This document shows, piece after piece, positions 7,797-33,140 of a stretch of 64,000 bases of DNA; position 1 is the first letter of the stretch, and every line of letters starts with the position of its first letter. Origin of the DNA: Vulcanimicrobiota bacterium (GTDB lineage: Bacteria; Vulcanimicrobiota; JAJTBE01); contig JAIORV010000155.1 of assembly GCA_021107945.1 (NCBI GenBank), positions 1-64,000 on the forward strand. The letters run 5' to 3'. Below the pieces are notes generated by a model. It saw only the letters and a program-made list of their open reading frames with translations, was not told where the DNA came from and made no database searches. The translations under genes and the position numbers were made by a program.

Positions 7797-8001
7797 ACTT
7801 GCTCACCATTTACTATGGGATATAGAAATCAGTAAAACAGAGGAATAATTGTTTTATCAATACGAACCTCCAACCCGAACCATCAGAATATTCTCAATTC
7901 AATAAATAATTTTGAATATTCCCTTCCTGAAATTCTTGGAAATAAATCTTAAATCACCACTTAATTTTTCACAACCAATCCTGTATGTACTTTTGAATTA
8001 G

Positions 8002-8279: not shown

Positions 8280-8492
8280 AGAATAAACAAAGAACTTCTG
8301 AGTTCATAAATCGGGAAAATATCCCAAAAAACAACTCCCCAAAATTTTTCAAAATTAATTTCAAAACACACTTAAGTTTTTCTCTCCTCTCCTGTAAATA
8401 GATATGATCCGGATCAAGAAAAGCGAGTCAGGAAATAGGCGAAGCTATAGTGAAAGCATCCCGAAAAACAAAAAAGGCAAGGAGTGGTGAAA

Positions 8493-10628: not shown

Positions 10629-12075
10629 ACGAAGCATTTTTCTGATATTATTCTTAGCCCTGGCTTTCTACCTGGCAAAATGGGTCAGGCCCCTGGAAAT
10701 CCTGGTGGGAGTGGGAACAACCCTGGCAGTAATGTTCTTTCTCTACAAAAGATTTGAAGACAGCGGTGATGATGAGGAAGATTACGTAGATGATGATGAG
10801 CTGAAGGATGAGGGATGGGGAGCACCCATCCTTCAGGTGGGGGGTCTGGCAGTAATAATGTGCCTGGTATTCTCGGGAATCTTTACATGGGTTCTCCCCC
10901 CGGAACCGGCAAATGCCCAGGAAGACCCGCAGGTAATCCGGCAGAGGGAAATGACCTTCCAAAAGATTGACACATACACCGACGCCGGAAGCTTCGATAA
11001 GGCTGTGGATATCCTCAACGGTTTTATCAATAGTGGTATCAGGAATGGAGAACTCTCAGGGGAGCAGAAAAGTAAGCTCTTTGCAAGAAAAGTAAAGATA
11101 CTCATTGCCTGGAGCGATAATGAGGAAGATACAAATAAGCGGATGAAGCTGCTTGCCCAGGCGGGGGAGCTGGACAGGCGATATAACACCGGAAATGGAG
11201 ACCTGATTGACGAGAAGGTAAGGAATATAAAACTGGAAAATCGAGATGAAGCTGTAAAGCTGCCAGGCAACTACCAGTTGAAGGTTCATTCCAGCAAGGT
11301 TGCTGGCTTCTCACCAGTAACCATAGAGATGACAGTGTCCGTTCTCGATAATAAGGGAAATACTGTAAAGAATCTCAGGGAGAAAGACTTCAAAGCCCTC
11401 GTTGATGGAGATAAATGCGGACTGGAATTGTCCAGGATTCAACCTTCCCGCAACATTGTAATACTTCAGGACATCTCCGGTTCTATGAAACAGGAGCACC
11501 TGCACAAAGCCTGGATGGGAATAAAGGCTGTAGTCAATAATCTGAAAGAAACCGACAAGTTCTGCCTGGTGGCATTCAACGATAAACCCCACCTTGTCTG
11601 CAACTGGACAGGTAAGGTAGAAAGCGTGGAGAATGCCTTCAAGAAGCTGAAACCGGGAGGAAACACCGCCATATATGACTCAGTTCATTTTGCCCTCAAA
11701 GAAGTGGAGAGATGGGGGAGCGGAAAGAACTACATCATTATCCTCACAGATGGAACCGACAGCAGCAGCAAAAGAAGCCTGGAGCAGATTGTAAAAAAAG
11801 TCAGGGCGGCAAAAGTGCCGGTACTCGTAATTGCTCTCAAAACCAGTGAGTTCAATGCCAATCCCCTGAAAAAACTCTCCGGCATCTCCGGTGGGCAATA
11901 CTTCGAAACCAGGAATGTTACGGAACTCAAAGCACTCTTTGAAAATGCAGCCCGATTTATGGATAACCGTTACACACTCTACCTGAAACCGGATACAATC
12001 AAAGCTACCAGTGAACACACTATTTCATTGACTGTGGGGAGGAACCTGAATGTAAAAGAAACTATCAAACTTTGA
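10621..12075 (+). CDS. Membrane VWA-domain protein, partner of the FtsZ-like GTPase
   Basis: The 484-residue protein has two closely spaced hydrophobic segments at its start (about residues 3-19 and 24-40), an acidic loop rich in Asp and Glu, a third membrane segment (about 60-85), and then an Ala/Asn-rich stretch. The C-terminal half is a von Willebrand A domain with an intact metal-ion-dependent adhesion site: Asp284-x-Ser286-x-Ser288 in LQDISGSM, a later conserved Thr in GGNTAIYDS, and Asp in ILTDGTDSS. The start follows GGAGG and overlaps the end of the FtsZ-like gene, so translation is probably coupled. I infer that it anchors GTPase filaments to the membrane or binds an extracytoplasmic ligand. 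The partner ligand is unknown. Confidence 0.8.
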   Translation: MFKRSIFLILFLALAFYLAKWVRPLEILVGVGTTLAVMFFLYKRFEDSGDDEEDYVDDDELKDEGWGAPILQVGGLAVIMCLVFSGIFTWVLPPEPANAQEDPQVIRQREMTFQKIDTYTDAGSFDKAVDILNGFINSGIRNGELSGEQKSKLFARKVKILIAWSDNEEDTNKRMKLLAQAGELDRRYNTGNGDLIDEKVRNIKLENRDEAVKLPGNYQLKVHSSKVAGFSPVTIEMTVSVLDNKGNTVKNLREKDFKALVDGDKCGLELSRIQPSRNIVILQDISGSMKQEHLHKAWMGIKAVVNNLKETDKFCLVAFNDKPHLVCNWTGKVESVENAFKKLKPGGNTAIYDSVHFALKEVERWGSGKNYIIILTDGTDSSSKRSLEQIVKKVRAAKVPVLVIALKTSEFNANPLKKLSGISGGQYFETRNVTELKALFENAARFMDNRYTLYLKPDTIKATSEHTISLTVGRNLNVKETIKL

Positions 12076-14612: not shown

Positions 14613-15087
14613 GAAGTCTTATGTCCTGGAGAGTTATCGGGAAAAACTCGAGTTCCCATCGCTCATAAGAAAAGTAAAAGAGAAGTATGAATTGGTAAAG
14701 AATAAATACAAATGCTCAATCAAGCTCTTAATTGAAGACAACGGTTCCGGGACTCAGCTTATCCAGACTTTGAAAGCGGAATACCATATTTCTTCCCAGG
14801 CTATAAAGCCCGAGTATGACAAGGCGACACGACTGCAATCAGTCTCACATCTGATAGAAAACGGCTCCTGTCTCTTTCCTAATAATGAGCCCCATTGGTG
14901 GCATGACTTTCTTTATGAGCTTCTGCGCTTTCCCAGGGCCAAACATGATGACCAGTGCGACGCTCTTAGCCAGGCACTGGGAAATAAACCGGAAATTGCC
15001 AGACCCCCGTGTCGCTTGAGAGGACGCAAAAGAATAGATTGGTCTCTACCTTTGGGCTTCGTAAGAGGTGAATTTCAACTGCTATAG
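14613..15087 (+). pseudogene. C-terminal fragment of phage terminase large subunit
   Basis: The reading frame matches the nuclease-domain end of the intact terminase at 58351-59889 at high identity (IEDxGSG, HDDQCDALSQALGNKPEIA). It starts abruptly at about 14613, with no ATPase domain or start codon upstream; TTG at 14692 is the first possible start. Homology to the other copy begins exactly here, marking the boundary of a partial duplication or deletion. Confidence 0.85.
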
Positions 15088-15136
15088 TTGACTTTTCCTT
15101 CATTGTAAGCGTTACTTGTGTTGAGGAAGGTTAATA

Positions 15137-15616
15137 ATGAAGAAGAAGATTTACCTACCAAAAACAATGAAGGAGCTGCAATCGCAGGGAAACGACTGGC
15201 TCAAGGAATTATGGATGAGGTATTTCAAGGCTCTGCCGATAATGGCTTGTCCGAGAACGATAAGGACGCTATGGTACAAGATCCAATGTGAGAATCATAA
15301 TCTGCGAATTAAACAGAAGAATATCACCAGGCTGAACCGATATTCAACCGACCCGGACAAGTATATTGAGAAATCATACAAGACCAAGTATCATTTGAGA
15401 AACGGCCTGGAAATTGTGAAGACATACAAGGGTAATCAGTACCGAGTGCTGGTTCGCTCGCCGGGGGAATTTGTCTGCGACAACCAATCCTACAAAACCC
15501 TGTCAGCCGTTGCCAGAGCTATCTGCAACAAGAAGGTCTCCGGCTATGACTTCTTCGGGCTCACCAATAGGCATTATGAAAAGAATATTGTGGAGGATGA
15601 GAAATGCAAAGGATAA
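15137..15616 (+). CDS. DUF2924 protein (copy 1), recombinase partner
   Basis: The 159-residue basic protein carries the DUF2924 hallmarks: an N-terminal LxxLWMRYF helix, a central YxVLV strand and the C-terminal signature SAVARAICNKKVSGYDFFGL. DUF2924 genes are regularly found directly before large serine recombinases in mobile elements, and this one overlaps the recombinase start by 13 bases, so translation is probably coupled. Its role is unknown; a DNA-binding accessory or directionality factor is an inference. It is nearly identical to the copy at 59939-60409, which ends differently. Confidence 0.75.
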   Translation: MKKKIYLPKTMKELQSQGNDWLKELWMRYFKALPIMACPRTIRTLWYKIQCENHNLRIKQKNITRLNRYSTDPDKYIEKSYKTKYHLRNGLEIVKTYKGNQYRVLVRSPGEFVCDNQSYKTLSAVARAICNKKVSGYDFFGLTNRHYEKNIVEDEKCKG

Positions 15617-17520
15617 ACTGCGCCATTTATGTTCGAAAATCCACGGAAAAGGGACTGGAGCAGGAGTTTAATTCCCTTCACAATCAGGAGGAAGCCTGCA
15701 AGAACTACATCCTGTCCCAGGCCTTCAACAGTTGGGAGTACTACAAGACTTATGAGGATGGTGGCATCTCCGGCGGGACGATGAAGCGCCCATCTCTTAA
15801 AAGAATGTTGCATGATATGAAGAAGGGACTTGTTCAGACGGTCGTGGTTTACAAGGTGGACCGCCTTTCAAGGTCCATTATTGATTTTCACAATATGATG
15901 AAAGAGTTCGAGAAGCACAATTGCAGTTTCGTTTCCATCACACAGGCATTCGACACCTCCAATTCTATGGGCAAACTCACCCTCAACATGCTTCTGTCCT
16001 TCGCCCAGTTTGAACGAGAGGTTTCATCGGAGAGAGTCAGGGACAAGATTGCCGCCAGCAAGAAGAAAGGGTTGTGGACGGGGGGTTGCCCGCCGCTGGG
16101 TTATGATCTGTCTGATAAGAAATTGATTCCCAATCCGAAAGAAGCGGAACATGTCAGGTTCATCTTTGAGAAATATCTGGAGGTGAAATCGTTAAGCAAG
16201 TTAAGGGAATTTCTATCGAATACCGATGTGAGAACAAAGAAATGGGTCAGTGAAACCGGCTTTGAGAAAGGTGGAAAGGTATTTTTCTCCTCCATGCTGT
16301 CCCGCCTGCTTCGCTCCAAGGTCTATATCGGCAAAATCGAGAGTAAGAAAGACGGAGTCTCTTACCCGGGAAAACACCAATCCATCATCGACAGGAAACT
16401 CTTTGATCGGGTGCAGTCCCTTATTGACGACAACCGGAATCAGTTTAACAAAGCCTATAACAAAAACGCATATCTTTTGTCCAACAAGATAAGTGACGAT
16501 CGCGGCAATGTATTTAAGAATCAACAATGCTCCAAGAAAAACTCAAGAAAAAGCTTGAAAGTAGGCTCGATAAAATACCGCTATTATGCACTAAAAGGCA
16601 AATATCTGCCCTCAGGCGATGTGGACGAGATTACGACAAAGATTGTCAGGGATCTGCTGGATCATCCCCTGCATAATCTTCTGAGCAGATCCCAGGTCAT
16701 TGAGTTTAAAGCTATAGATTTCCAGTCCCTGACGCCGAACGAGCGGTCGAACCTTATTCGCTCAATGATCAACAGAATAATATATCACAACAACAAGCTG
16801 ACATATTTCATCAAGATTGACGACCTGACTTATCTGAAATCATCCCAGAAGAAGAATTATTTGAACACCACAAATGCCACTACTACATACAATGATAATA
16901 TTGCGAGTACGTCAATTAATGAGGTTTTACCGATTAATCTATCATTGAGATCAATGCAGCACCTAAGAGATAATCCGATGGCGAAAATATCACCACTTAC
17001 GGAGACTGCGATCAATAATGAAGAACATCATAGCATAACAATCGATGCCGACTATCACAACGAAATCGTATGTTATCCCGGCAAGCACAACGAGGCCGGA
17101 ACCCGCCTGAGCAAAGATAATGATGCCATAATTTTTCCGAGCAAAGATGCCCAGGAGTTGATCGTAGAAAAAGAGATTTGCATCAATAACCGCCCTTCAA
17201 CTAACAAATACCTGGGGAGCGGGAAGAAGATGATATCCATCGGGGAGAATTGCGACAACCTCATAAAAGCCCTGAGCACTGGATGGCGTTATGAGAAAAT
17301 GTCACAAAATGGCCAGTCCATAAAGAAAATCGCAGAGGCTGAAAGAATGGCGAAACGGACTGTCTACAAGTACTTGAATCTGAACTACCTCTCACCAAAC
17401 ATTATCAACAGCGTTATGGACAGCGAAGTCCCGACGCACATTAACCTACAGGCACTCTTCAAAATCGCTTCGAAGTATCCCAATTTCAATGATCAGGAAC
17501 GGGTATTCTATGATATTTGA
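15604..17520 (+). CDS. Large serine recombinase (copy 1)
   Basis: The 638-residue protein has the resolvase/invertase catalytic domain (residues about 5-150) with the nucleophile Ser13 in YVRKSTE, VYKVDRLSRS and ERExxSERVRDKI. The recombinase domain follows with GCPPLGYD. The C-terminal region holds a Hin-like helix-turn-helix (SIKKIAEAERMAKRTVYKYL). I see no zinc-ribbon Cys cluster. It would integrate, excise or invert DNA between short att sites. Compared with copy 2 (60586-62343) it has about 50 extra residues between roughly 420 and 510, a divergent linker. RBS GGAGGATGAGAA overlaps the DUF2924 end. Confidence 0.85.
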   Translation: MQRINCAIYVRKSTEKGLEQEFNSLHNQEEACKNYILSQAFNSWEYYKTYEDGGISGGTMKRPSLKRMLHDMKKGLVQTVVVYKVDRLSRSIIDFHNMMKEFEKHNCSFVSITQAFDTSNSMGKLTLNMLLSFAQFEREVSSERVRDKIAASKKKGLWTGGCPPLGYDLSDKKLIPNPKEAEHVRFIFEKYLEVKSLSKLREFLSNTDVRTKKWVSETGFEKGGKVFFSSMLSRLLRSKVYIGKIESKKDGVSYPGKHQSIIDRKLFDRVQSLIDDNRNQFNKAYNKNAYLLSNKISDDRGNVFKNQQCSKKNSRKSLKVGSIKYRYYALKGKYLPSGDVDEITTKIVRDLLDHPLHNLLSRSQVIEFKAIDFQSLTPNERSNLIRSMINRIIYHNNKLTYFIKIDDLTYLKSSQKKNYLNTTNATTTYNDNIASTSINEVLPINLSLRSMQHLRDNPMAKISPLTETAINNEEHHSITIDADYHNEIVCYPGKHNEAGTRLSKDNDAIIFPSKDAQELIVEKEICINNRPSTNKYLGSGKKMISIGENCDNLIKALSTGWRYEKMSQNGQSIKKIAEAERMAKRTVYKYLNLNYLSPNIINSVMDSEVPTHINLQALFKIASKYPNFNDQERVFYDI

Positions 17521-19668: not shown

Positions 19669-20685
19669 CTATGAAAGGATTTGATCTTTTTCTGGGGTGA
19701 TCAAATCAAATAACAGATCGCCCTCCTCATCAATATCCAGGGAAATCCTCTCCCCCTCTTTCACATTCATCCTTGAAACACCGGAGTTTACGAATTTTCG
19801 CACTATCTTTTTGACCTTCCTGGCCCCCTCTTCCTGTGAAAATGCCGTCCTAGCCAGAACTCTCTTCGCAATATCGGATACCTCAATGCTAATCCCCATA
19901 TCTTCTTCAAGAGATCTTATTTCAATATCAAAGAGCTTTTCTATGTCTCCGGCATTTAAACTGTGGAAAGTCACGATATTTGAAAGTCTCCCCAGGAATT
20001 CCGGGGGAAAATATTGCCTGGCTGCCTGGAAAAACTTTTTCTTTTCATCGCCGGATATACCCCGATCTTTTCGAAATCCCACGCTTTCTTCTTCTTTCCT
20101 GTTGCCAAGATTGGAAGTCAAAATTACTATTGAATGTCTGAAATCGGCCTTGAGCCCGCTCTGATCGGTCAGAGAACCTTCGTCCATTATTTGAAGTAAA
20201 ATAGTATAAATATCAGGATGGGCCTTTTCAATTTCATCAAAGAGAACAAGAGAGTAAGGATTTTTTCGGACATTCTCAGTCAGAACTCCGCCTTCCTGGA
20301 ATCCAATATATCCGGGAGGCGCTCCAATGAGCTTGGACTTGGTATGGGATTCGCTCAATTCAGAACAGTCGATTCTGACCATCCTTTTCTTATCTCCGAA
20401 GTGAGCTTCTGCCATGACCTTTGCCATTTCGGTTTTCCCACAACCGCTCGGACCAATGAAAAGAAAAGAACCCATAGGCTTATAGAGATCACTTTTCACC
20501 CTCCGGGCGCTGAGATGGTCCAGCACGGTTCTCTTTGCTTCCTCCTGCCCCACTATCTTTTCCTGTAATGCTTTCTCAAGGGCAGAAAGGTTTCCCTCTC
20601 CCGATCTTACCCTGATCCTTTCAACAGGGATCCCGGTCTTTTCCGATACAATTTCCAAAATAGCCTTTTCGAAAAGTTCTGTCAT
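19669..20685 (-). CDS. ClpB/ClpA-type AAA+ D2 protein (split unfoldase, C-terminal half)
   Basis: The 338-residue protein corresponds to the second AAA+ module of ClpA/ClpB alone. It has Walker A GPSGCGKTE (78-86), pore loop GAPPGYIGF with Tyr126, Walker B LVLFDEIEKAH (Asp150-Glu151), sensor TSNLG, an arginine-finger region PPEFLGRL, and a ClpB-like small C-terminal domain. No D1, N-domain or IGF/L ClpP-docking loop is evident, so disaggregase-like rather than ClpP-linked action is more likely. It overlaps the D1 gene by four bases. I infer that D1 and D2 proteins assemble as a two-ring unfoldase acting on conjugates made by the E1/E2 enzymes of this operon. It is the last gene of the operon. 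Confidence 0.8.
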   Translation of the reverse strand: MTELFEKAILEIVSEKTGIPVERIRVRSGEGNLSALEKALQEKIVGQEEAKRTVLDHLSARRVKSDLYKPMGSFLFIGPSGCGKTEMAKVMAEAHFGDKKRMVRIDCSELSESHTKSKLIGAPPGYIGFQEGGVLTENVRKNPYSLVLFDEIEKAHPDIYTILLQIMDEGSLTDQSGLKADFRHSIVILTSNLGNRKEEESVGFRKDRGISGDEKKKFFQAARQYFPPEFLGRLSNIVTFHSLNAGDIEKLFDIEIRSLEEDMGISIEVSDIAKRVLARTAFSQEEGARKVKKIVRKFVNSGVSRMNVKEGERISLDIDEEGDLLFDLITPEKDQILS

Positions 20686-22007
20686 TTCCTTTCACTCCAT
20701 TTCTTCAGCAATTCGTTTAGCCTCTTAGCCGTAGCATAATCCCCTTCCTCAATAGCTTGCTCTATCTCTCTTTTAATATCTTCAATAGAATCCGCAGGCT
20801 GACCGACTTTGCTCATCTTACTCGTTTCCATACTCACTCTTGCGGCCGCCTCGTCAATCAATCCCAGAGCCTTGTCGGGAAAAGACCTATCCAGGAAGTA
20901 ATACCCGGACACATCAATGGCCATTTGCAGAATTTCATCGGGAATCTCGATCCCGTGGTGATCCTCCAGGTCAGCTCTCAGCCCCTCTAATATCTGCAGG
21001 GTCTCTTCTTCATTTGGTTCATTCACGATTATCTTTTCAAATCGCCTGCTCAACGCTCCATCAGTCTCAATTTTCCTGAAATCCCTTGGAGTGCAGGCGG
21101 CGATTACCCTCATGCCTCCCCTGGCAAGAGCGGGTTTTAATATCTCAACAACCGGGATATCTCCGCGGGCACCAAGCAGGCTTTGAAGCTCGTCAAAGAA
21201 GATTACCAGATGAGGATTGCTCTCCGCCTCTTCAATTATTTCCTTGATTCTATTTTCCACTTCTCCCTTGATCCCGGCCCCGGCCATCAGGTAGCCAGAA
21301 TTTATTTCGATAATCCGGATCCGTTTCAAGGAAGGGGGCACTTCAGCTTTCACAATTCTCTGCGCCAGGCCATATACTATAGTGGACTTTCCAGTACCGG
21401 AATTTCCAACCAAAACTGCGTTGGGCTTTTCTTTTTTGGAGAGAATAACCAGGAGACTTTCCATTTCCCTCTTTCTTCCAATCACGGCGGGAAGTTTCCC
21501 TTCCCTTGCCATCTTTGTGAGATCCCTTCCAAACCGGGACATCTTGAAATCTCTTTCTTTTTCTTCTTTGGGAATCTCGTAAACAAACCGGCCCTTTCTT
21601 GGCATTTCCAGAGCCTTTCCATCCAAGCCCAGAATGGAATCAATCCCGCTGAGGGCTTCCGGCAACTTGGGGGGCGAATCATTGGCAATGATTAGCTTCT
21701 GTCTAAATAATCTTAATCCACTGTGAAAGTCTCCCTTTATCCTCGCTACAAATCGCGTTTTGCCGGGTTGTACAGCGCCACCCTGGATAGATTGCCATTC
21801 CTGGTTTCTTCCCCTATATTGCACATTGCTTCCGATGTACACTTCACAGAGATTTCCGTTCACTCCAAGAAAAACTACGTCAGTTTGAGGCGGCTCGAAA
21901 ACATCTGGCAAGGAAATCGAACTCAAGACGACGAGTCCATTCTGAGTAAATTCCTTTGACAAAGTATTAAAGAGGATGGGATCATTTATGAAAATATCAA
22001 ATGCCAT
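20682..22007 (-). CDS. ClpB-type AAA+ D1 protein with unusual N-domain (split unfoldase)
   Basis: The 441-residue protein has an N-terminal region (about 1-115) unlike the Clp N-domain and not recognised by me, then a ClpA/B D1 module. DLTKMAREGKLPAVIGR is the classic entry motif, Walker A is GNSGTGKST (201-209), and Walker B is LVIFFDELQSL. The D1 pore loop, normally with an aromatic residue before Arg-Gly, reads GIKG. The end has an M-like/UVR-like helix (IEEGDYATAKRLNELL). The start at 22007 follows AAGGAGG; a longer frame reaches 22049. With the D2 gene it rebuilds a ClpB-like enzyme in two pieces. The N-domain is the probable substrate-recognition element, perhaps for the conjugated tag. 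Confidence 0.8.
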   Translation of the reverse strand: MAFDIFINDPILFNTLSKEFTQNGLVVLSSISLPDVFEPPQTDVVFLGVNGNLCEVYIGSNVQYRGRNQEWQSIQGGAVQPGKTRFVARIKGDFHSGLRLFRQKLIIANDSPPKLPEALSGIDSILGLDGKALEMPRKGRFVYEIPKEEKERDFKMSRFGRDLTKMAREGKLPAVIGRKREMESLLVILSKKEKPNAVLVGNSGTGKSTIVYGLAQRIVKAEVPPSLKRIRIIEINSGYLMAGAGIKGEVENRIKEIIEEAESNPHLVIFFDELQSLLGARGDIPVVEILKPALARGGMRVIAACTPRDFRKIETDGALSRRFEKIIVNEPNEEETLQILEGLRADLEDHHGIEIPDEILQMAIDVSGYYFLDRSFPDKALGLIDEAAARVSMETSKMSKVGQPADSIEDIKREIEQAIEEGDYATAKRLNELLKKWSERK

Positions 22008-22578
22008 GTCTTGCCTCCTTGTAAGGTAAGTATTCACGCCCGGCCACAACCTTTATTGGAGAGTAGCAAACCCTGAGTCCCTCTCTTTCAACCGCCCAGG
22101 GCCATATGACAGGGACATCGTCAGGGTCGAAAGTGATAATCGGAGAGAAGAATCTCTTCATTTCGGGATTGTAATCAAATACAGCCTCAATATATCCCAG
22201 GTCTCCCTTTGCAAATCCGGCCTTTTTGCTGAGAAAACCGTTCCAATGAGTAGGATGAGAGTGGATGTCTCCTACCCATATATGCGAATCTTCGATTCGC
22301 AGCCAGAATGCAAGCCTATGATTTCCCCAGTCTGAGTCCGGGCGGAAGACAGATTCACCTGAACCAGAATTATCAAATTCGAACACATCAATGCCTTCCT
22401 GTCCCTTTGGTCCCCAGAGTTTACCTCCAGATTCAGACGGCATATTGCCGATCGTTTCAAGAAGGTGGTTCAATGCCCATTTCGTAATGAAAACAGGAGG
22501 CCCAATCGGGAACCCATTATCTCCGGCTACTCGAAAACTACGCACTTTGTCGATCACCAACCTTTCTTTTATTGTCAC
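21997..22578 (-). CDS. JAMM/JAB (MPN+) metalloprotease, soluble
   Basis: The 193-residue protein carries a JAMM zinc site: Glu49 in SESGGKLWG, His106-x-His108 in GDIHSHP, and Asp126 in KGDLGYI, with Ser117 between. The spacing from the HxH to the Asp is longer than the textbook S-x2-D. JAMM enzymes remove ubiquitin-like proteins or process tag precursors in bacterial E1/E2 operons. It lacks a signal peptide or membrane segment. GTG start at 22578. It overlaps the D1 unfoldase gene by 11 bases and follows the E1 gene by 13 bases. It is clearly paralogous to the JAMM domain at 23564-25042. Confidence 0.8.
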   Translation of the reverse strand: MTIKERLVIDKVRSFRVAGDNGFPIGPPVFITKWALNHLLETIGNMPSESGGKLWGPKGQEGIDVFEFDNSGSGESVFRPDSDWGNHRLAFWLRIEDSHIWVGDIHSHPTHWNGFLSKKAGFAKGDLGYIEAVFDYNPEMKRFFSPIITFDPDDVPVIWPWAVEREGLRVCYSPIKVVAGREYLPYKEARHGI

Positions 22579-22591: not shown

Positions 22592-23473
22592 TCATGAAGG
22601 CTTTCCTAGGCATACCGGGCAATTGGGGTCAAATTCCGTCTTAAGCCAAACCGAATCCATTGAAAATAGCATGGATTTAATTTCCCGGGCATAGTCCCTG
22701 GGTTGCACCGGAAGATCACCCAAAATTGCGTCCCATACCATATTTCCCCAGAGATATTCGGGCGAGCACCTTACCATAATATCGTTTCGAAAATCCATCT
22801 CCCGGAAGAATTTGCCCATTAATGAATCTTGCCTCCGCTCCAGGATGGCTACCGAGACTTTGAGGGCAATCATATCAATGAATTGACAGTCAATGATGGA
22901 TCCCCTGGCACCGTGAAGATCGGTTGTTAAATCGCCCTGGCTCTTGAATTCCTGGAATCTTTCCCTGGCGATACACCGGTAGCAAGGCGTGATTCCTGGA
23001 ATTGTCCACACTATACGTCCGCCAAGTGCTCCAATGTGAACACCGATAAAAATTGCAGGAATATTATAGGCAACACTTAGATCGTTCAGTAAAGCCTGAG
23101 CTTTGAACTGGTCGGTACCAGCAATAATCAGGTCTGCTCCATTGACCAATTCCTGGATTTCGTCTCCGTCCATCTGGCAGATGTCCTTTCGAAATCTCTT
23201 AACCTTTACGTCAGGATTAATTTCCTCGATTCTTTTTCCAAGAGCGTCAACCTTGTATTGTCCAATGTCCTTCATTGTATAAACGGTTCTTGAAAGATTG
23301 GATATTTCAACTGTATCCATATCTCCAATGCGAATCTCCGCAGGACAAAGTCGGGCAAGTTTCTCTGTTGCATAACTCCCGGCTCCCTGGCCCACCACGG
23401 TAATCACCTTTTCGTGGAATTCCCTGGAGACAATCCCTTCCAGCCTGCTAATGTATTCTTTCATTGTATCCAT
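22592..23473 (-). CDS. ThiF/E1-like adenylating enzyme
   Basis: The 293-residue protein has the E1 superfamily nucleotide loop VGQGAGS (28-33), the catalytic Asp51 and Arg62 of DMDTVEISNLSRT, the GTD motif (Asp121), and a zinc site formed by CYRC (164/167) and CPVC (285/288). These mark an enzyme that adenylates the C-terminus of a ubiquitin-like protein or peptide and may take it as a thioester. Like Prok-E1 proteins in JAB/E2 operons it has no rhodanese or UFD domain. Neighbours on both sides are JAMM proteases. The start at 23473 has an ATG nine bases downstream as an alternative. Confidence 0.85.
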   Translation of the reverse strand: MDTMKEYISRLEGIVSREFHEKVITVVGQGAGSYATEKLARLCPAEIRIGDMDTVEISNLSRTVYTMKDIGQYKVDALGKRIEEINPDVKVKRFRKDICQMDGDEIQELVNGADLIIAGTDQFKAQALLNDLSVAYNIPAIFIGVHIGALGGRIVWTIPGITPCYRCIARERFQEFKSQGDLTTDLHGARGSIIDCQFIDMIALKVSVAILERRQDSLMGKFFREMDFRNDIMVRCSPEYLWGNMVWDAILGDLPVQPRDYAREIKSMLFSMDSVWLKTEFDPNCPVCLGKPS

Positions 23474-23563: not shown

Positions 23564-25042
23564 TTAAGGCTTTATTCTCTTTCTGAAAGCCAGCAATGCG
23601 ATGGTTATCAACACCAGAACAATCAGGCACCACGCGGGCAGAGTATTATCCCAAAATAGTCCTCCAAATGCCAAAAGGTTCTTATTGATCCACAGAACAT
23701 AGAACTGCGCTATGCGCTCAAGCCAGGTAGGCTGGACAAATGAGATTGTCAAGATGCTTGTCAACGCCACAATAATCCCAATCAAAGTGGAAAAAATGGT
23801 CAATGATGGGAAGGTGTCCAGGGAATCCAATGCATCTTGGGACTTGCTCCAGAGCCCTTTCAGGCGAGGGAGAATTGAACGATCTTGAGCAAGAGCCTGA
23901 CAGGCGTCTTCATTGGAATCAGATTCATGTTTTGGTAGAGGTTTACTCGGAGGTTCCTCTCCCTTATTCGAGGAATCAACTTGAGAAGGTTCATATGAGG
24001 GAGATTGTCTATGGCGCCCACGAGTTTCTGGATTAGAGGGAAAATTTGAATCGGAAATAGCTGTAAAACTGGACATGCTTCTCAATCCCCAGGGAAAATA
24101 GGCATTCAACGACTTGAATATTGCAAGAGCATCAATTAAAGGTAAAACGGGTTGGTAAGGTTGAGAAATTGAAATATTGATATTAATAGGCTGAATGATC
24201 TCTTGCTTTCCCGATTTATCGCAGGAATTCTCATTTACAATCCCTGTCGGTTCTGCATGTCGCTCCTCTTCATTAGAAACTCTGGCTTCCTCTACGATTG
24301 ACTCCTTGTACTCATCGGAGATCCCTGTCCCGGTGGTATTATCTCGATTGGGAAAGGAATCCCGGGTTACAGTCTCTTCGGTTACAATATCTTTTTTGCT
24401 TTCAAGTTCTTTCTCCCAATATGGATTATAAATTCTTTCTGGAAATTTGTCAGCCTTACATACTACGAGTTCTGCAAAATATAATTCAGGCGGATTCCCG
24501 CGCCTGCAAATCCAGGGCCATAGCCTGGGAATCTTGCCTTTTCCGGTATTTGTCAGTATCGGCAGAGCAAAAAACTCCATCCATTCATTCTGCCTGAAGA
24601 CCTCCTCCACATACCCCATGTCCCCAAGACCTTCTCCAGATTTACTGGACGGACGACCAAATTTTTTACCAGGGTGGGTGTGGATGTCGCCGTTCCAGAC
24701 CCGCATAATGGTCTCCGGAACATCGAGATGGTAGTGTACCCTTTCTGAACCCCAATCTTTATCCGGGGCATATACAACCCCATTAGCTTGTCGGGAGCCA
24801 TTGATGTCAAATTCAATCCGATCAAAACCCATCAGGTCTTTTGGACCGAAACCCTTTGCCCCGGTTTCGGGGGGAAGTTTTCCGACGGTTAATAGCAGTT
24901 CCCTTATAGCTTCATTCGTAAAGCACATGGGCAATGGGGACTTTTCCACTTTACTGCCCAGGATATTTCTGGCATCCTCAAGCGAGGCAATCTGGAACTC
25001 CGGGCAATCAGCAAAGCAATTATTGCTTGAGTCACTACTCAC
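23564..25042 (-). CDS. Membrane-anchored JAMM/JAB metalloprotease
   Basis: The 492-residue protein has an N-terminal JAMM domain (about 35-210) with Glu59 in PPETGAKGF, His121-x-His123 in GDIHTHP and Asp141 in LGDMGY. A long low-complexity hydrophilic linker follows (about 225-405, Ser/Asn/Pro/Glu-rich, with a VPLI-like hydrophobic island). Two membrane segments end the protein (about 408-432 and 450-485) with a basic RKRIKP tail. GTG start follows GGAGGAAG. The design places a deconjugating or tag-processing protease at the membrane. It is paralogous to the soluble JAMM two genes downstream. Whether the catalytic domain faces the cytoplasm is inferred from the lack of a signal peptide. Confidence 0.8.
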   Translation of the reverse strand: MSSDSSNNCFADCPEFQIASLEDARNILGSKVEKSPLPMCFTNEAIRELLLTVGKLPPETGAKGFGPKDLMGFDRIEFDINGSRQANGVVYAPDKDWGSERVHYHLDVPETIMRVWNGDIHTHPGKKFGRPSSKSGEGLGDMGYVEEVFRQNEWMEFFALPILTNTGKGKIPRLWPWICRRGNPPELYFAELVVCKADKFPERIYNPYWEKELESKKDIVTEETVTRDSFPNRDNTTGTGISDEYKESIVEEARVSNEEERHAEPTGIVNENSCDKSGKQEIIQPININISISQPYQPVLPLIDALAIFKSLNAYFPWGLRSMSSFTAISDSNFPSNPETRGRHRQSPSYEPSQVDSSNKGEEPPSKPLPKHESDSNEDACQALAQDRSILPRLKGLWSKSQDALDSLDTFPSLTIFSTLIGIIVALTSILTISFVQPTWLERIAQFYVLWINKNLLAFGGLFWDNTLPAWCLIVLVLITIALLAFRKRIKP

Positions 25043-25057: not shown

Positions 25058-25432
25058 TCAGGGGGGATTGGGAAATTTTCCCGATTCCATAAGAATGCTA
25101 AAGCATTGACACCAATAACGGGCTCTATAGAGCGCAGAAGAGAAATCTGGCTGATCCATACCAAGATCAATCAATCCGTCATATCGCAAATGTGAAGTTT
25201 GATATGAGTAAGGGTTTTCGCCCCAGGGATTGTAAATACAATATGCCCTGGCCTGTTCTCCATTGGGAGATGCCTTAATCTCGATCCGATAAATTCGCCC
25301 ATCGGAGTCAGTGAAGTCTTCAATGAAACATAGAATTCCGTCCTCAATGCCGATCAAGGCATTGGGATTAAGGCCCTTCATTTTTTCAATGATCTTATGT
25401 TGAACATCTACTCCATCACTTGTGGGTTCCAT
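25058..25432 (-). CDS. E2-like protein lacking the catalytic Cys (UEV-like paralogue)
   Basis: The 124-residue protein is a clear paralogue of the next upstream gene: NPNALIGIE, the RIYxIEIKASP strand, YNPWGENPYSY, SHLRYDGLIDLG and RARYWCQCFSILMESG all align. At the position of the candidate catalytic Cys80 of the paralogue this protein has Asp89, and it also lacks a ten-residue loop downstream. The UBC-like reading rests on the order strand, proline-rich loop, His motif, Cys site, helix. If correct, it resembles eukaryotic Cys-less E2 variants that act as partners of active E2s. RBS GAGGAG. It lies 15 bases before the membrane JAMM gene. Confidence 0.6.
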   Translation of the reverse strand: MEPTSDGVDVQHKIIEKMKGLNPNALIGIEDGILCFIEDFTDSDGRIYRIEIKASPNGEQARAYCIYNPWGENPYSYQTSHLRYDGLIDLGMDQPDFSSALYRARYWCQCFSILMESGKFPNPP

Positions 25433-25474: not shown

Positions 25475-25843
25475 TCATGGATCGGGGAACTCCCCGGATT
25501 CCATTAAGCGGCTAAAAGCTGTGCACCAGTAACGGGCACGAAGGATTGCTGTCTCCACATCCATGGGAGAAGAATAAAGGTCCTTATGAACATCATTTCC
25601 AAGGCACAAGAATTCATCTTCATGCAAATGGGACTCTATATAGGAATACGGATTCTTGCCCCAGGGATTGTAACGGCAGAATCCGATTGCCTTTTTTCCA
25701 TCGGGAGTGGCCTGGATCTCGATCGAGAACATCCTTCCATCAGGATCTATGACATGCTCAACCATGCAAATTCGGCCATCGCTTTCTATACCGATAAGTG
25801 CATTTGGATTTAACTCCTTCATTATTTCTGAAGCTTTGCTCAT
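25475..25843 (-). CDS. E2-like (UBC-fold) conjugating protein, candidate catalytic Cys80
   Basis: The 122-residue protein has an E2-like order: a strand-rich N-terminal half ending in YNPWGKNPYSY, a His-containing turn SHLHEDEFLCLG with Cys80 where E2s place the thioester cysteine, and a C-terminal helix with RARYWCTAFSRLMES. Overall similarity to UBC proteins is weak, so the assignment depends on motif order and on the E1 and two JAMM neighbours. Cys107 is shared by both paralogues and is more likely structural. The start at 25843 follows GGAAAGGAGG; a longer frame to 25924 adds a basic stretch without an SD. It would pass an activated tag from the E1 to a target. Confidence 0.6.
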   Translation of the reverse strand: MSKASEIMKELNPNALIGIESDGRICMVEHVIDPDGRMFSIEIQATPDGKKAIGFCRYNPWGKNPYSYIESHLHEDEFLCLGNDVHKDLYSSPMDVETAILRARYWCTAFSRLMESGEFPDP

Positions 25844-25977
25844 GTTTATCCTCCTTTCCAAAGGTAGGGGAAAAGGGTGGCAGAATATTATGGGTTTGCG
25901 TCTTTTATTCCGCCACCCGATCATCCCATAGCGGCCCCTTACCGAATATGCCCGGGTGGGACCTCCTTGCGAGCCTT

Positions 25978-26172
25978 CTATAAGGCTTCTGGATCCACGT
26001 GATATTCGCCCGATGGCACAGATTGGCGCGCCTGCCTCAGGGCTTCAGCGTCAACGTGATACTCTCCACTAGGAACACTCTGACGAGCTCTCCTCAACGC
26101 TTCAGCATCCACTGCATAAGCCCCCTCAGGCACGACCACACCAACTGCGAGCAGATCTTTCCTTCCTACCAT
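25978..26172 (-). CDS. 64-residue tandem-repeat peptide of the ubiquitin-like operon
   Basis: After a short leader (MVGRKDLLAVGVV) the peptide consists of two full 19-residue units and one partial unit of the form VPSGEYHVDAEALRQARQS, ending HVDPEAL at the stop. The second and third units spell the same residues with different codons (for example Ser as AGT in one and TCG in the other, Pro CCT/CCA, Asp GAC/GAT), so the protein sequence and not the DNA is being conserved. It has no C-terminal Gly-Gly and does not look like a beta-grasp ubiquitin. The start at 26172 follows AAAGGAGG. As the first substantial gene before E2, JAMM and E1, it is a candidate tag, substrate or multi-core precursor. 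Confidence 0.65.
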   Translation of the reverse strand: MVGRKDLLAVGVVVPEGAYAVDAEALRRARQSVPSGEYHVDAEALRQARQSVPSGEYHVDPEAL

Positions 26173-26286
26173 ATTCACACCTCCTTTCATTATTATAAAC
26201 ACTATATAGGTGAAAATCTTGCACCGGGATTCCTCGAATTTATTTAAGAGATTCTGAGCAGAGAACATTTAGCTGTGAACAGATTT

Positions 26287-27534: not shown

Positions 27535-28803
27535 CTAAATGCAATTTCCATTGTCTTTTTTAAGTATTTGAAAGTCTTTTTCTACATCTTCTGATTCAAT
27601 TTCCTTATCAAGAGAAGCGCAAATGGCGTATCCTCCCCCTCCAGATCTCCATCTATACAGGAAACATTTCCCGCAGAAAATTTTGGGCATATTTTGATGT
27701 TCACAAAGGACAGCTTTCTGACTTATCTCTGGAAATAGCTGCAGAATCAATTTTCCTTTTTCATCTATATCTTTTCTTATATCCTCCACATGGTTCTTAA
27801 TCTTATCTTTAGTAAAATCCTTGCCGGGATATTCATCATCAATAAATCTGAGTTGTTTTACACAGAACTCTGCTAAATTGGCACATTGGTATCCTGTTTC
27901 TCCTGTCTTTAAGTGTCCTAGCGCTTTATTTTGAAGAGCAAATCCGCATAAATTATCGTTTGAAAGTAAGCACATAGGATTTTCCTTTGCTAAATCTATC
28001 TTAAAGCGTTCAATTATATTTTTTTTATTACTCATATTGAGTGGTGAAATACATTGAATTTTCTCATTTTGAATCTTATTAACGATATTTCTTAGCGTAA
28101 TTGGGGATCTGCCATGCTTAAATATCGTATTAAATGTAACTGCTTGACTTTTATGAAGTAAAAGGGCCATCTGATACTTTATATCTTTTTTTTTAATAAA
28201 GAGACCCATTTTATCTTCAAAAAGTTGTCCCTTTAAAATCGTTACCTCATAAGGCTGAGGCGCTAATCTTTTATCTATATCTTTTCTAATCTGGCGAAAG
28301 GGTTTAACAATGTTATCTAAGACATACTTGATAGTTTCAAGCAGTTGCTTACAGACTTTTTCAGATATATCTTCCGCTTTACCTTTCTTTATAATATATG
28401 GATAAGTGATTCCCGCTTTATGGGCCTTCTCTAAACCCTTCTTTCCTTTAATAAGATCATCATAAGCTGTAACTAAAATTCCTGCAGTTTTATATTCCGG
28501 ATGTCTTTCCTTGTTTTTTATTAAAATTGCTATTCCATCCATTTCCTTATCTGATTTAGAGCGCCCTGTTTCATGAGAAAACTCGTAATTTAGATCAGTA
28601 ATAATAATATCATATTCTTTGCTTAAAAAAAAATCTTCATAATCAGTAAAGCTTTGTGTGTAATCAATATCAATTGTAGCATTATTATCATTTTTTTCTA
28701 GCCATCCCCGTAATTGAGGCTCTATTTGTTCCTTGAAACCATCAATTACTTTGCCAATGTCATCTCCAAAAAGAAGAGTATAATTTTCACCTTGACCTGA
28801 CAT
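27535..28803 (-). CDS. Response regulator with unusual Cys-containing output region
   Basis: The 422-residue protein begins with a receiver domain: acidic residues Asp14-Asp15, phosphoacceptor Asp70 in YDIIITDLN, Thr in ILVTAYDD and Lys in YIIKKG. The C-terminal 270 residues match no output domain I know. They contain a possible winged-helix stretch (about 205-260) and a Cys/His group CEHQNMPKIFCGKC that could bind a metal. The start at 28803 follows GAGGTG. The histidine-kinase gene lies ten bases upstream, so the two form a two-component system closing the long operon. Targets are not evident. Confidence 0.7.
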   Translation of the reverse strand: MSGQGENYTLLFGDDIGKVIDGFKEQIEPQLRGWLEKNDNNATIDIDYTQSFTDYEDFFLSKEYDIIITDLNYEFSHETGRSKSDKEMDGIAILIKNKERHPEYKTAGILVTAYDDLIKGKKGLEKAHKAGITYPYIIKKGKAEDISEKVCKQLLETIKYVLDNIVKPFRQIRKDIDKRLAPQPYEVTILKGQLFEDKMGLFIKKKDIKYQMALLLHKSQAVTFNTIFKHGRSPITLRNIVNKIQNEKIQCISPLNMSNKKNIIERFKIDLAKENPMCLLSNDNLCGFALQNKALGHLKTGETGYQCANLAEFCVKQLRFIDDEYPGKDFTKDKIKNHVEDIRKDIDEKGKLILQLFPEISQKAVLCEHQNMPKIFCGKCFLYRWRSGGGGYAICASLDKEIESEDVEKDFQILKKDNGNCI

Positions 28804-28813
28804 TTTAATCACC

Positions 28814-31588
28814 TCATTCTAAATTCTTAGGAATGTAAATCACAAACTCAGCTAACTGTTCCTGTAGTTCCCATTTACTAACTCTACTATTGTATGGGGA
28901 TTTTTGCCTGTATAGCATATCTAATAAGAATAATATGAATCGTAAACCAAGCCCTGTACTTTCAGAACCAAGATTCTCAATTTCACTTTTTTTGCGCCTT
29001 CCCAAGCAACAAAAGCAAATTGGAAGTTCTAATTTATTAGGTTGAAAGATGGGGGAGATGGGGTCTTTGCAGCATTCGCAATACTCTGGAGCCCGATCAA
29101 TAATATCTGGAAGAGGTAGAGGATTAATAAGCTTCAATTCTACCCAACCATCTTTTTCAGAAGCATTTACGCCAACTTCAATGCTCTTGTTTTTCCAATT
29201 CTCCTCATTTTTATCATACGCTGCATTTAAGGCATTCTTGAGAAGCTCATAAACCACTAAAGAAAGTGCTGTTTTATGAATTGTCATCGTTGAGCAATCA
29301 GTAGAGACTTCAACATTGACAGGATAATTTAGCCAATATTTTTTTACGTGCATACTCTTTTCAATTCGAAGCTTGCTTGCAGATCTCCGCCATTCTGTTT
29401 TCCTAACCCTCTTTTCTATTTTCTTAAGAAATGGTATTAATTCAATACTTTCTGGTTTTGAAAAGAAAGTTTCTTTATTGCCAGATAAAAAGCGTGCAAT
29501 TTCCGAAAAAAAATCTACTTCAAAAGCCCTGATATCGTTTGTATATTTAAAGAACTCAGCATCCGATAGCAGAGATTCCATGGTCATAAACATATTTGCG
29601 TTCTTCTTTACCGTAACGCGGTCAGCATCTGAATTACATTGCATAAATTTATCTATATATTCTTTAATGAGGGGCTTTTCTAATTGGACTTTTATATCGG
29701 GTTTATTCAAGAAATTCATCGCTAAACAAAGGTGATCTGCGACGAAAGAATAGGCAAAAATTTCATTTTTGATAGAGTGGCTTAGCCAACTAGCAAAGTT
29801 TGTAACTTGATTGACTCTTTCTTTTAACATCCTATTCCAATTCTCTATCGCCCAAGAAATAGTCTTGGCAAAATCATCAAGACCCTCTATCAATTCCGAT
29901 TGTATAGTATTCTTGTGAAAGGGAAGAAGAAACTCAATACGGCCGATGATGCCCAAAGGAATTCTAACTCTTGAACAATAGCGCTTCTCCTTTTTATCCT
30001 CATTTTTTCTCCAGACACATTCTTTAAATTTATCACAAACAGCCTCCGTTATTTCTATTAGTGCTGTTTCTCGCAAATCCGGATCAACTTCTGCAATTTC
30101 TATACATCTGTCTGGAGCATAACCACATTCACTCTTGAATTCTTCCTCATCTTCAATCAGGAGAAGTTCCTCATACACATCCAGAAGGTTTTTCTTCAGG
30201 CCCTTGATAAACTCCTTTTCTGATTCCTTCTTGGAAACTTGCCCTATCTTTCCATACAATTTCTCGTTGAGATCTGAGAGGATGGCCTTATAGAAATCCC
30301 TGGTTTTGCTTTTTACCAGGTCAATCAAGTATTCTGCAAGTTTGACTCTTGCTTTATTCTCTTTTTCTTTTCCAAAATAAAGATAAATCAGCCCAAAAAC
30401 TTCCTTATGAATTTTAATAGGAATTATTTCAAGGCTTTTTGCCTTTTCTGTCGGATCCTTAAACGGGAATATGAATATGGTCCTCTCTAAAGGATATATA
30501 ATTTCATTGAGAAAATCCTTATAAATTCCTTCTTCAATTTTATAATATTCTATTTTTTTACTTTCTGGGTTAAACTCTTTTTCACTAAGAAATTCTGGCA
30601 AATTGGATATGGTCTTCCCCAACTTCCATCTCCTCATTTTTCCAATCGTGCCACTTGCTTGCTTTTGATCGAAATATTTCAGTAATAATAAAGGCGAAGT
30701 CCTGTCTTTAAGAAAAGGATAATATTCTTCCTTCTTATGGTTTGTCTTCCAATTTTTAAACTTGGTCTCAAATTCGCTTATCTTCCCAGGACAATTTTTA
30801 AATTCGTCTCTAATATCTCTCAACAATATTTGGCAGAATTCAGAGTTTTCATCAGAAGAGAAGGCTTTTAAAGCCTCCCTTGCTCTTTTTTCACACTGTT
30901 TTGTTTTTTTCCCGAAGATGTAAGTATCAACTACTTCTTTATCTTTCTCTCCTGGACAATAGATGAAATTACGCATTTCACTATCTTCAACCTTATTTCT
31001 TAATAAACAATATAATCCACATTTTTGATTATCTTTTCCACCCCCCCATATTTTTGAATATAATTTGCTGGCTGGTTCAACTAAATTTTCCATATTACTA
31101 ATCGTCTCTTTGAGGTACCAGAATTTCTTCTCCGTTTCCCTCCTTTCTGATCGCTTACATTCTTTTAGAGAATAGTAAATCTTCTCAATTTCCGATTTAG
31201 CAATTTGGTCTCCAAAACGACTTAGAATAGACTCAAATTCCTGCAGTGTATCCTGGTCATAAGAAGATAACACAAAATTTCTCTTCTGCCTTTGAGGCTT
31301 AATGGAGACTTCGATAGTGTATTGGTTACCAGATTTATGTAATGTAATTCCTTCTTCATCCCCATCCATCATATCTTCCACATGAACCTTTTTTTCCTCA
31401 AATTCCGGCTTCCTAAAGATTGTTAAAATCCATTTTCTTATTTCCTCAAAAATAAGATCAAAAAAATCTCTCTCTTCACTTCTAATCATTATCCAGAAGA
31501 CTTTTTCCAGAGAATGTGTCAAGAGATATTCAAAATTTACAGATTTAGTAGAATTCATATAATCGCCTCTATAGTTCTGGAATTCCAT
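28814..31588 (-). CDS. Large cytoplasmic histidine kinase with an inserted zinc ribbon
   Basis: About 924 residues. The C-terminus is a histidine-kinase core: H-box WLSHSIKNEI, N-box YELLKNALNAAY, and G-box STGLGLRF. Between the N and G boxes lies CECCKDP...CFCC, a four-cysteine zinc-ribbon-like insertion in the ATP lid. The long N-terminal region (about 600 residues) has no membrane segments and several Cys pairs, and part of it (about 320-420) may be GAF-like, so the signal is probably cytoplasmic. The start at 31588 follows GGAGG; other starts are 31645, which overlaps the previous gene, and 31558. The partner regulator follows directly. Confidence 0.75.
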   Translation of the reverse strand: MEFQNYRGDYMNSTKSVNFEYLLTHSLEKVFWIMIRSEERDFFDLIFEEIRKWILTIFRKPEFEEKKVHVEDMMDGDEEGITLHKSGNQYTIEVSIKPQRQKRNFVLSSYDQDTLQEFESILSRFGDQIAKSEIEKIYYSLKECKRSERRETEKKFWYLKETISNMENLVEPASKLYSKIWGGGKDNQKCGLYCLLRNKVEDSEMRNFIYCPGEKDKEVVDTYIFGKKTKQCEKRAREALKAFSSDENSEFCQILLRDIRDEFKNCPGKISEFETKFKNWKTNHKKEEYYPFLKDRTSPLLLLKYFDQKQASGTIGKMRRWKLGKTISNLPEFLSEKEFNPESKKIEYYKIEEGIYKDFLNEIIYPLERTIFIFPFKDPTEKAKSLEIIPIKIHKEVFGLIYLYFGKEKENKARVKLAEYLIDLVKSKTRDFYKAILSDLNEKLYGKIGQVSKKESEKEFIKGLKKNLLDVYEELLLIEDEEEFKSECGYAPDRCIEIAEVDPDLRETALIEITEAVCDKFKECVWRKNEDKKEKRYCSRVRIPLGIIGRIEFLLPFHKNTIQSELIEGLDDFAKTISWAIENWNRMLKERVNQVTNFASWLSHSIKNEIFAYSFVADHLCLAMNFLNKPDIKVQLEKPLIKEYIDKFMQCNSDADRVTVKKNANMFMTMESLLSDAEFFKYTNDIRAFEVDFFSEIARFLSGNKETFFSKPESIELIPFLKKIEKRVRKTEWRRSASKLRIEKSMHVKKYWLNYPVNVEVSTDCSTMTIHKTALSLVVYELLKNALNAAYDKNEENWKNKSIEVGVNASEKDGWVELKLINPLPLPDIIDRAPEYCECCKDPISPIFQPNKLELPICFCCLGRRKKSEIENLGSESTGLGLRFILFLLDMLYRQKSPYNSRVSKWELQEQLAEFVIYIPKNLE

Positions 31589-31613
31589 CCAAGATTTGCC
31601 TCCTGGCATACCT

Positions 31614-33140
31614 TCAGGGCAATTGACTACTCCTGCATTTTGCATCTTCTCGATATTTATTGGTAAAATACTTACTCCACTTATATTCCGGGTGGCTCAG
31701 GTAGTAATCCCTTACATTCGGGCGGTGGTGCTTGATCCTGATTTCCCCATAAAGTATTTCACCATTAACCTCTCTCATTCCTTCCATGCGGATTTTTTCA
31801 AGCTCCTGGCCTGTCAAGTGCTTAGTTCTTATTGCCGCCCTTTCAAAAGTGAATAATTCATATTTATTCTCATCAATCAGGTAGCCTTTTTTCTTGCATT
31901 CCCAATAAAAAGGAGTTCCAGGATATGGCGTTACAAGGAAAAACAATGCCATACTCAGTCCACATTCATCTTTGAGATATTTTGCAAATTCTATGGTCTT
32001 TCTTATGTCTTCCTCAGTTTCCTCCGGGAAACCAATCATGAAGCCGCCCTCGGTCTCAATGCCAGCCTCGGTAAACTTTCTGCAGAGCCTGGGGACGTTT
32101 CCCAATTCTTTATGAAAGTCCCTCCATCTTGTTTTATAGTTCTCAACAATCTCGATATTGAGGGACTCCACTGGAAAATAGACCCGGGAACATCCATATT
32201 CAATAATTATGTCTATCATCTCATCGGTTAATCTGGCAAGGTTCAATCCATTCAGGATACTCCAATAGAATCCCATCTTATTCAGCATTTCGAAGACTTT
32301 GACTGACAATTCGGGTTTCAAAAAGACATCGTTATCTTCCAGGAGAATTTCGTCATATCCCAACTCCTTGAGATTTTCCAATTGGTCTTGAATCCTATCG
32401 AGATCAAAAAAACGGCATTTATTTCCAGTCATCATATAGGATGCACAAAAGGTACAAGCCCAATCGCAACCCCTCGAGAAAACATAATCAGTAATAAATT
32501 TCCCCCTGATCACTGCCGTATGGAAGTGTCTATTGGGATAAAGCTCCTTCTTGAAAATGGTGTAGTCCGGGTCGGGTAGTGCATTGAGGTCGGGAACTCT
32601 TTCTATTTGATTCTTTAGAGTTTCCCCATCAATATTAGTTGCAATGCCCGGGACATTACAAAGATCTATCTTTCCTTCCAGATACTCCATTAACTTTACA
32701 ATGGAAAGTTCTCCCTCTCCCCTTGCAATGAAATCTATGTTCTTGTCTAGCAAAATCTTCTCATAATCTCCAGTGGCGTGAGCGCCACCAATAAGTGTTA
32801 CAATTCCGGGATTAACTTCCTTGACGAGTCTGCAAATATCCCTCACCGCCGGGAATTGTGGGGTCCTAATATTGGTAACCCCGACAACCTGGGGATTATA
32901 CCGGGCAATTCTTTTTTTTATTTCATCATAATCCAATCCCACCCGTATTAAATCGTTCTTCACAAAAATCTCGTTTTCAACTGCCTCGGCAGTGGCGTCT
33001 ATATACTCAACTTCATATCCATTTCTTTTCAGCACACTGGACAAAAATGCACAAGCCAGACTGGGGCCGATCCGGAAATAGTCGATTTCGGGATTATAGA
33101 ATTCGTGGGGTTGGATCAATAGTATCCGACTAACCTTCAT
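31614..33140 (-). CDS. B12-binding radical SAM enzyme (class B methyltransferase type)
   Basis: The 508-residue protein has an N-terminal cobalamin-binding-like domain (about 1-150, with LIGGAHAT) and a radical SAM barrel with the cluster motif Cys225-x3-Cys229-x2-Cys232 in FSRGCDWACTFC. The ordering and length match class B radical SAM methylases, which act on unactivated carbons in peptides, antibiotics and lipids. The C-terminal tail is variable and may bind substrate. The start at 33140 follows GGAG with five-base spacing; two GTG/ATG choices lie within six bases. Its place in the operon suggests methylation of the operon's product. It lies 151 bases after the preceding radical SAM gene, the largest gap in the operon, in which I found no small gene. 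Confidence 0.8.
   Translation of the reverse strand: MKVSRILLIQPHEFYNPEIDYFRIGPSLACAFLSSVLKRNGYEVEYIDATAEAVENEIFVKNDLIRVGLDYDEIKKRIARYNPQVVGVTNIRTPQFPAVRDICRLVKEVNPGIVTLIGGAHATGDYEKILLDKNIDFIARGEGELSIVKLMEYLEGKIDLCNVPGIATNIDGETLKNQIERVPDLNALPDPDYTIFKKELYPNRHFHTAVIRGKFITDYVFSRGCDWACTFCASYMMTGNKCRFFDLDRIQDQLENLKELGYDEILLEDNDVFLKPELSVKVFEMLNKMGFYWSILNGLNLARLTDEMIDIIIEYGCSRVYFPVESLNIEIVENYKTRWRDFHKELGNVPRLCRKFTEAGIETEGGFMIGFPEETEEDIRKTIEFAKYLKDECGLSMALFFLVTPYPGTPFYWECKKKGYLIDENKYELFTFERAAIRTKHLTGQELEKIRMEGMREVNGEILYGEIRIKHHRPNVRDYYLSHPEYKWSKYFTNKYREDAKCRSSQLP

Follow-up and report, generated by a model that had tools for sequence, protein, structure and literature searches.

A short, sometimes tandem peptide with a conserved C-terminal motif accompanies E1/E2/JAMM genes in two operon lineages and is a possible linear modifier

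A short peptide, sometimes built of tandem units and conserved at its C-terminus, is associated with E1, E2-like, and JAMM genes in two operon lineages, and this association is a firm result. In the 64,000-nucleotide stretch of DNA analyzed here (the window), the peptide gene is the head of an operon of E2-like, JAMM, ThiF/E1, and Clp-type genes (Table 1). Of 13 related gene clusters, 12 have a peptide beside the E1/E2/JAMM genes, namely the window, an orthologous operon (L022), and 10 sister operons of a second lineage. All 12 peptides carry [LIV]xxG[TE][LY]H near the C-terminus, as VPSGEYH, VPTGEYH, LPDGTLH, LDSGTLH, and similar forms. E1/E2/JAMM operons are widespread in bacteria, some of the types described list no gene for a ubiquitin-like (Ubl) protein, and the substrate they activate is an open question. 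Here, a tiny and easily missed ORF with a common C-terminal signature occupies the modifier position in both lineages. There is an even chance that the peptide is a short, largely unstructured, dedicated substrate of the neighboring E1/E2/JAMM enzymes, either a poly-peptide modifier that replaces the beta-grasp Ubl protein or an activated carrier.

Table 1. Features of the peptide operon in the window, in order of transcription.
Feature	Position	Strand	Remarks
Shine-Dalgarno sequence AAAGGAGG of peptide gene	26180..26187	-	perfect, 7 nt before ATG 26172
Repeat peptide gene, 64 aa, proposed modifier precursor	25978..26172	-	orthologue L022:8751-8873
Unit 1, VPEGAYAVDAEALRRARQS	26077..26133	-	diverged, without GEYH
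Unit 2, VPSGEYHVDAEALRQARQS	26020..26076	-	
Unit 3	25981..26019	-	truncated to 13 aa, VPSGEYH plus tail VDPEAL
Strong hairpin between peptide gene and first E2-like gene	25875..25918	-	z -3.58
P0006, E2-like	25475..25843	-	H-x7-C motif intact; no E2 match in Foldseek search of PDB
P0005, E2-like paralogue	25058..25432	-	Cys replaced by Asp, presumed inactive
P0004, JAMM peptidase	23564..25042	-	hydrophobic, probably membrane-spanning C-terminus
P0002, E1-like ThiF adenylyltransferase	22592..23473	-	CxxC..CxxC zinc site, Cys in DCQF
P0003, second JAMM peptidase	21997..22578	-	E, HxH, S, D all present
P0007, Clp/Hsp100 first AAA+ domain	20682..22007	-	with new conserved N-terminal domain
P0008, Clp/Hsp100 second AAA+ domain	19669..20685	-	

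The product of the minus-strand ORF 26172-25978 is MVGRKDLLAVGVVVPEGAYAVDAEALRRARQSVPSGEYHVDAEALRQARQSVPSGEYHVDPEAL, followed by a stop. Its start codon is preferred over an in-frame ATG further upstream, which gives 96 aa, because of the Shine-Dalgarno sequence. The original prediction placed here three 19-residue copies of one repeat, the same in protein. The repeat is real and was correctly located, but only two copies are full and the third has 13 residues. Units 2 and 3 share 12 of 13 residues, 8 of them through different codons, including AGT against TCG for Ser. Unit 1 has diverged and reads VPEGAYAVD, GEYH being present in units 2 and 3 only; it nevertheless matches unit 2 at 15 of 19 residues, 10 of these again through different codons. 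The predicted use of different codons, including both Ser families, was thus borne out.

This pattern is far from what chance would leave. The same number of random nucleotide changes is expected to replace 12.4 residues between units 1 and 2 and 7.7 between units 2 and 3, where 4 and 1 are observed. Among 20,000 simulations, none was as conservative as the observed units 1 and 2 or units 2 and 3, and 0.36% were as conservative as units 1 and 3; the differences between units lie mostly in synonymous codons (p<=0.004 against random substitution). None of 5000 protein shuffles reached the self-similarity of the window peptide. Judged by codon usage, the repeat units are selected at the protein level, in agreement with the purifying selection on each unit that had been proposed, and recent DNA duplication as the source of the repeat is ruled out. 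A leader or non-coding explanation of the ORF is likewise ruled out by synonymous drift across loci; the ORF looks translated and is under selection as a protein.

The peptide does not resemble a folded modifier. It is too short for a beta-grasp protein and is predicted to be mostly unfolded: an AF2 model, for which the two-sequence alignment is a poor basis, has a pLDDT of 61, a pTM of 0.26, and two short helices, in keeping with a linear tag. A hidden beta-grasp was rejected on account of these low-confidence short helices, the lack of any Pfam Ubl match in the peptide, and the lack of a Multi_ubiq protein in the genome of the window. Nor is there a Gly-Gly C-terminus, as had been noted from the outset; the common end is G-x-[LY]-H. 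The hairpin that follows the gene has a counterpart at the equivalent place in L022 (8945-8977, z -4.32), different from that of the window but equally strong. It is a possible attenuator or mRNA stabilizer and would be consistent with higher expression of the first gene than of the enzyme genes.

The enzymes support the E1/E2/JAMM operon that was originally proposed, with the E2 call resting on motif, predicted topology, and context, because Foldseek finds no solved E2 that would confirm it. P0006 and both E2-like copies of L022 have the H-x7-C motif, with spacing equal to that of a Pfam Prok-E2_B protein (L050), and the AF2 model of P0006 (pLDDT 85) has a helix, four strands, an active-site loop, and a long helix. 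For P0006 and its paralogue P0005 (57% identity), profile searches also gave no E2 match in the PDB and hhalign gave a weak match; beyond the catalytic motif, none of these comparisons lends solid support to E2 homology. The E1, P0002, matches Pfam ThiF (E=1.7e-33), and the adenylation residues (G.G, D.D, N, R, K, D) and the zinc cysteines (CxxC..CxxC) are invariant in 11 of 11 E1 sequences; the Cys that the window E1 has is missing from the sister E1s. Among solved structures, the best profile matches of P0002 are UBA5 and MoeB, then ThiF, BubCD, Uba4, MccB, PaaA, and Cap2. All 12 aligned JAMMs have the same E, HxH, S, and D residues, and the Pfam Prok-JAB match is weak for P0003 and above cut-off for several relatives.

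P0007 and P0008 together make a split Clp/Hsp100 AAA+ ATPase. P0008 carries VGF where ClpA and ClpC have the ClpP-docking loop, and the genome encodes ClpP; L022 is without this loop, so degradation by the Clp-like ATPase is put forward as a possibility. The N-terminal domain of the first Clp gene (window 22007-21500, L022:11758-12250) is conserved as FEPxxxDxVFxxxGxxCEVxxGxxVxYRG. It is a candidate tag receptor, which might read the tag.

Just downstream of the operon, at 14692-17520 (+), are a terminase RNaseH-like fragment, a DUF2924 protein, and a large serine recombinase, and the region may therefore be mobile. At 2700-12075 (+), a large NACHT-like and HEAT-repeat protein is followed by a Tubulin_2-like protein that overlaps a VWA-domain protein, in what looks like a conflict or defence-type cluster. 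On the other side, two neighboring genes of 425 and 943 aa with no Pfam match adjoin the operon at 27535-31645 (-).

When GTDB genomes were scanned with both JAMMs of the operon, one locus was obtained, L022, in a Planctomycetaceae MAG. In gene order, it encodes the peptide, a pair of E2-like proteins that both have the H..C motif, JAMM fused to E1, and the Clp D1 and Clp D2 proteins; a TrwC relaxase and a type IV coupling protein come next and place it on a conjugative element. The E1 proteins of the window and L022 are 52% identical. The L022 peptide, MQSGPKVLEFVVPNGTYCVDAADLEAARSGVPTGEYHNPK, has 40 aa with a degenerate first unit and one GEYH, and keeps VVPxGxYxVDAxxLxxAR..VPxGEYH in common with the window peptide. 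Several hundred genomes of the phyla of the window and L022 contained no third operon of the window type. A scan of genome contigs used a poorly chosen automatic pattern and returned a single relative; further ones probably exist.

The second lineage is more distant. Among 398 genomes from the Planctomycete class, the E1 profile detected 10 E1 loci (L036-L045) in eight genomes; in these loci, genes for a TM protein and a HerA/TraG-like ATPase come after the E2-like, JAMM, and E1 genes. When the small ORFs upstream of the E1 genes were all clustered and a motif search was then run, a peptide of 17-33 aa emerged in 10 of 10 operons, always in the order E2, peptide, JAMM, E1, and most of the 10 have a Shine-Dalgarno-like sequence upstream. 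Their core is G[IV]EE[LIV]xxGTLH, with an invariant EE pair that the window peptide lacks; besides the G-x-[LY]-H end and GIEEL, little is conserved. The cores differ by 345 synonymous and 154 replacement codon changes, and no antisense match to the core occurs in 148,624 bp or in the window. Two peptides, those of L038 (MKFVLNGIEELDSGTLHGIEELDSGTLHA) and L045, consist of two exact head-to-tail units with different codons, which in L038 again draw on both serine families (AGC/TCT). The refutation that had been set beforehand, an absence of any conserved repeat peptide from other genomes with the same genes, did not come about: L022 conserves the peptide, and all 10 E2-JAMM-E1 operons have a comparable short one, tandem in two of them.

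These Planctomycete mobile elements also encode a Replic_Relax protein, their TM protein has 215-230 aa and their HerA/TraG-like ATPase 620-630 aa, and two genomes (G167 and G207) hold two copies each of the E2-JAMM-E1 element. In five elements, a conserved protein of 70-95 aa with the motif ..CEYxxxxGEAVEISSxDGxIxHAILCFPELQKLLRFR.. lies just upstream of the E2-like gene (e.g., L037:5658-5942 and L045:9317-9538).

Taken together, the 12 peptides have an N-terminal extension with a first motif, sometimes directly adjoining a second unit, and a short tail. The tail after the last His has 0-6 residues (VDPEAL, NPK, none, A, TGR, and others), and the peptides of L036, L040, and L043 stop exactly at GTLH, where the other sister peptides have 1-3 further residues. 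Four of the 12 precursors are repetitive, with G-x-[LY]-H twice in those of the window, L038, and L045 and once in that of L022. The exception among the clusters is L057, a contig from a viral collection that has E1 and JAMM genes and, beside an HNH-like ORF, a truncated E2; no peptide is recognizable in it. It was the only relative in plasmids, phages, and IMG/VR; the plasmid ThiF loci examined belong to MoaD/ThiS, thiamine, or CBASS-like clusters or are without annotation. Directly after the E1 gene of L057, a Cys-rich, zinc-finger-like protein without a Pfam match (6861-7442, +) replaces the usual TM protein. In the E1 tree, the window and L022 group with support of 99/99 and the second lineage with 83/93. 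It does not unite these groups as sisters and is therefore compatible with both common descent and convergence of the peptide.

At the level of sequence, then, the peptide is conserved, is linked to the enzyme set, and is accompanied by intact catalytic residues. This anatomy is compatible with cleavage of the peptide into units and with its attachment to targets. Since the extreme C-termini of the peptides differ, activation would need a trimming step, in which JAMM would remove the tail of 0-6 residues and cut repeated units after G-x-[LY]-H. The proposed cut is placed after His because three sister peptides stop at GTLH; these displaced a first guess, a UFM1-like single-Gly end at VPxG. E1 would adenylate the newly made C-terminus, and the E2 with H-x7-C would accept the peptide as a thioester and pass it to a target amine, with the second, Cys-less E2 serving as a scaffold. 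JAMM could also undo the attachment; in operons of the window type, tagged proteins would be acted on by the Clp-like ATPase. The full proposal is a ubiquitin-type conjugation class, carried by mobile elements, that has no folded modifier: E1 and E2 would activate a free linear peptide (~11-39 residues, single or tandem, with Gly-x-Leu/Tyr-His at its end), and JAMM would cut and recycle it. We hold this proposal tentatively, at a little short of an even chance.

The main rival, although unlikely, is a RiPP-type precursor. Here, the ThiF-like enzyme would activate a side chain or the C-terminus of a core peptide, JAMM would cut the core from its leader or tail, the repeats would be multiple cores, and the product would be a modified small molecule. 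Pantocin synthesis works on adjacent Glu residues, which recalls the invariant EE pair of the sister peptides, but the pair is missing from the window and L022 peptides. MccB and PaaA are among the profile matches of the E1, yet the best are UBA5 and MoeB. Microcin C and pantocin A are made by ThiF-like enzymes, and some microcin C clusters include ClpA homologues (PMC12250964); E2-like proteins, which are sometimes active/inactive pairs, and JAMMs have no place in the known ThiF RiPP clusters, and no exporter is found among the ORFs of the operon.

A rather improbable alternative is that the peptide binds the enzymes or the Clp-type ATPase non-covalently, as a docking or regulatory peptide with repeats for avidity, and that the modified protein is something else, for example, one encoded elsewhere. 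The helix-capping pattern VDxEAL, the two predicted short helices, and the conservation of helix positions between the window and L022 are consistent with docking, as is L057, which keeps E1 and JAMM without a peptide. However, the most conserved residues in all operons are those of the C-terminal G-x-[LY]-H, where the peptide often ends, as expected of an activated end, and the sister operons retain almost only this end and GIEEL. The chance is slight that the peptide is a sulfur carrier, with a JAMM-trimmed C-terminus converted to a thiocarboxylate for a reaction in biosynthesis or on tRNA. ThiS-like carriers (QbsE/QbsD) are known to undergo JAMM trimming and then E1-dependent thiocarboxylation, and MoeB and ThiF are among the best E1 matches, but the operon has no rhodanese, desulfurase, or sulfur genes, such pathways do not involve E2-like proteins, and the known carriers are beta-grasp proteins with Gly-Gly. 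Identity as a FlgM-like anti-sigma peptide is rejected as highly improbable, since the Pfam FlgM match (E = 6e-6, 26.7 bits, cut-off 25) spans only 26 residues, NCBIfam FlgM scores 22.5 against a cut-off of 40.75, the L022 orthologue has no match, no flagellar genes are nearby, and the context is an E1/E2/JAMM operon.

If the peptide is indeed the conjugated substrate, folding would not be a requirement for a modifier, other operons that appear to lack a Ubl could be searched for short ORFs, and two or three small enzymes could, together with a peptide of 17 residues, serve as a minimal protein-tagging tool. No short tandem peptide with E1/E2/JAMM is described in the literature searched, an absence that is not proof of novelty.

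Among known systems, Pup resembles the proposed modifier as a small, disordered protein that is handed to an AAA+ unfoldase; it differs in using the glutamine-synthetase-like ligase PafA instead of E1/E2/JAMM and in ending in GGQ/E. The Bub and Bil systems share E1, E2-like, and JAMM-type genes with the operons described here, and the E1 profile matches include BubCD of Citrobacter. Both use folded Ubl proteins, whereas no Ubl gene is present here. ThiF-dependent RiPPs such as microcin C and pantocin A likewise combine a ThiF-like enzyme with a short precursor peptide, but the E2-like and JAMM partners found here are not mentioned for them (review PMC12250964). Operon types 6a-6c are tabulated without a Ubl among their components (Iyer et al. 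2006, PMC1779556). The polyUbl operons (type 6e) encode beta-grasp repeats of 70-75 aa and similarly place a repeated modifier gene beside a JAB-E1 and an inactive E2-like protein, with sporadic distribution (Iyer et al. 2006, PMC1779556); the JAMM-E1 fusion recurs in L022. Here, in contrast, the units have 11-19 aa, no beta-grasp is predicted, and the genome has no Multi_ubiq. The closing comparison is with Cap2/Cap3 of type II CBASS, an E1-E2 fusion and a JAMM that act on the C-terminus of a CD-NTase. As proposed here, enzymes act on the flexible C-terminal tail of a non-beta-grasp protein, and both systems are found on mobile elements. The substrate there is a single-copy enzyme of ~400 residues, whereas here it would be a stand-alone peptide of 17-64 residues, sometimes tandem, with no CD-NTase and with E1 and E2 as separate genes. 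According to a 2025 review, no E1/E2-type system other than Cap2 is known to have a non-beta-grasp substrate, and further systems hidden by non-canonical substrates are predicted (PMC12355090).
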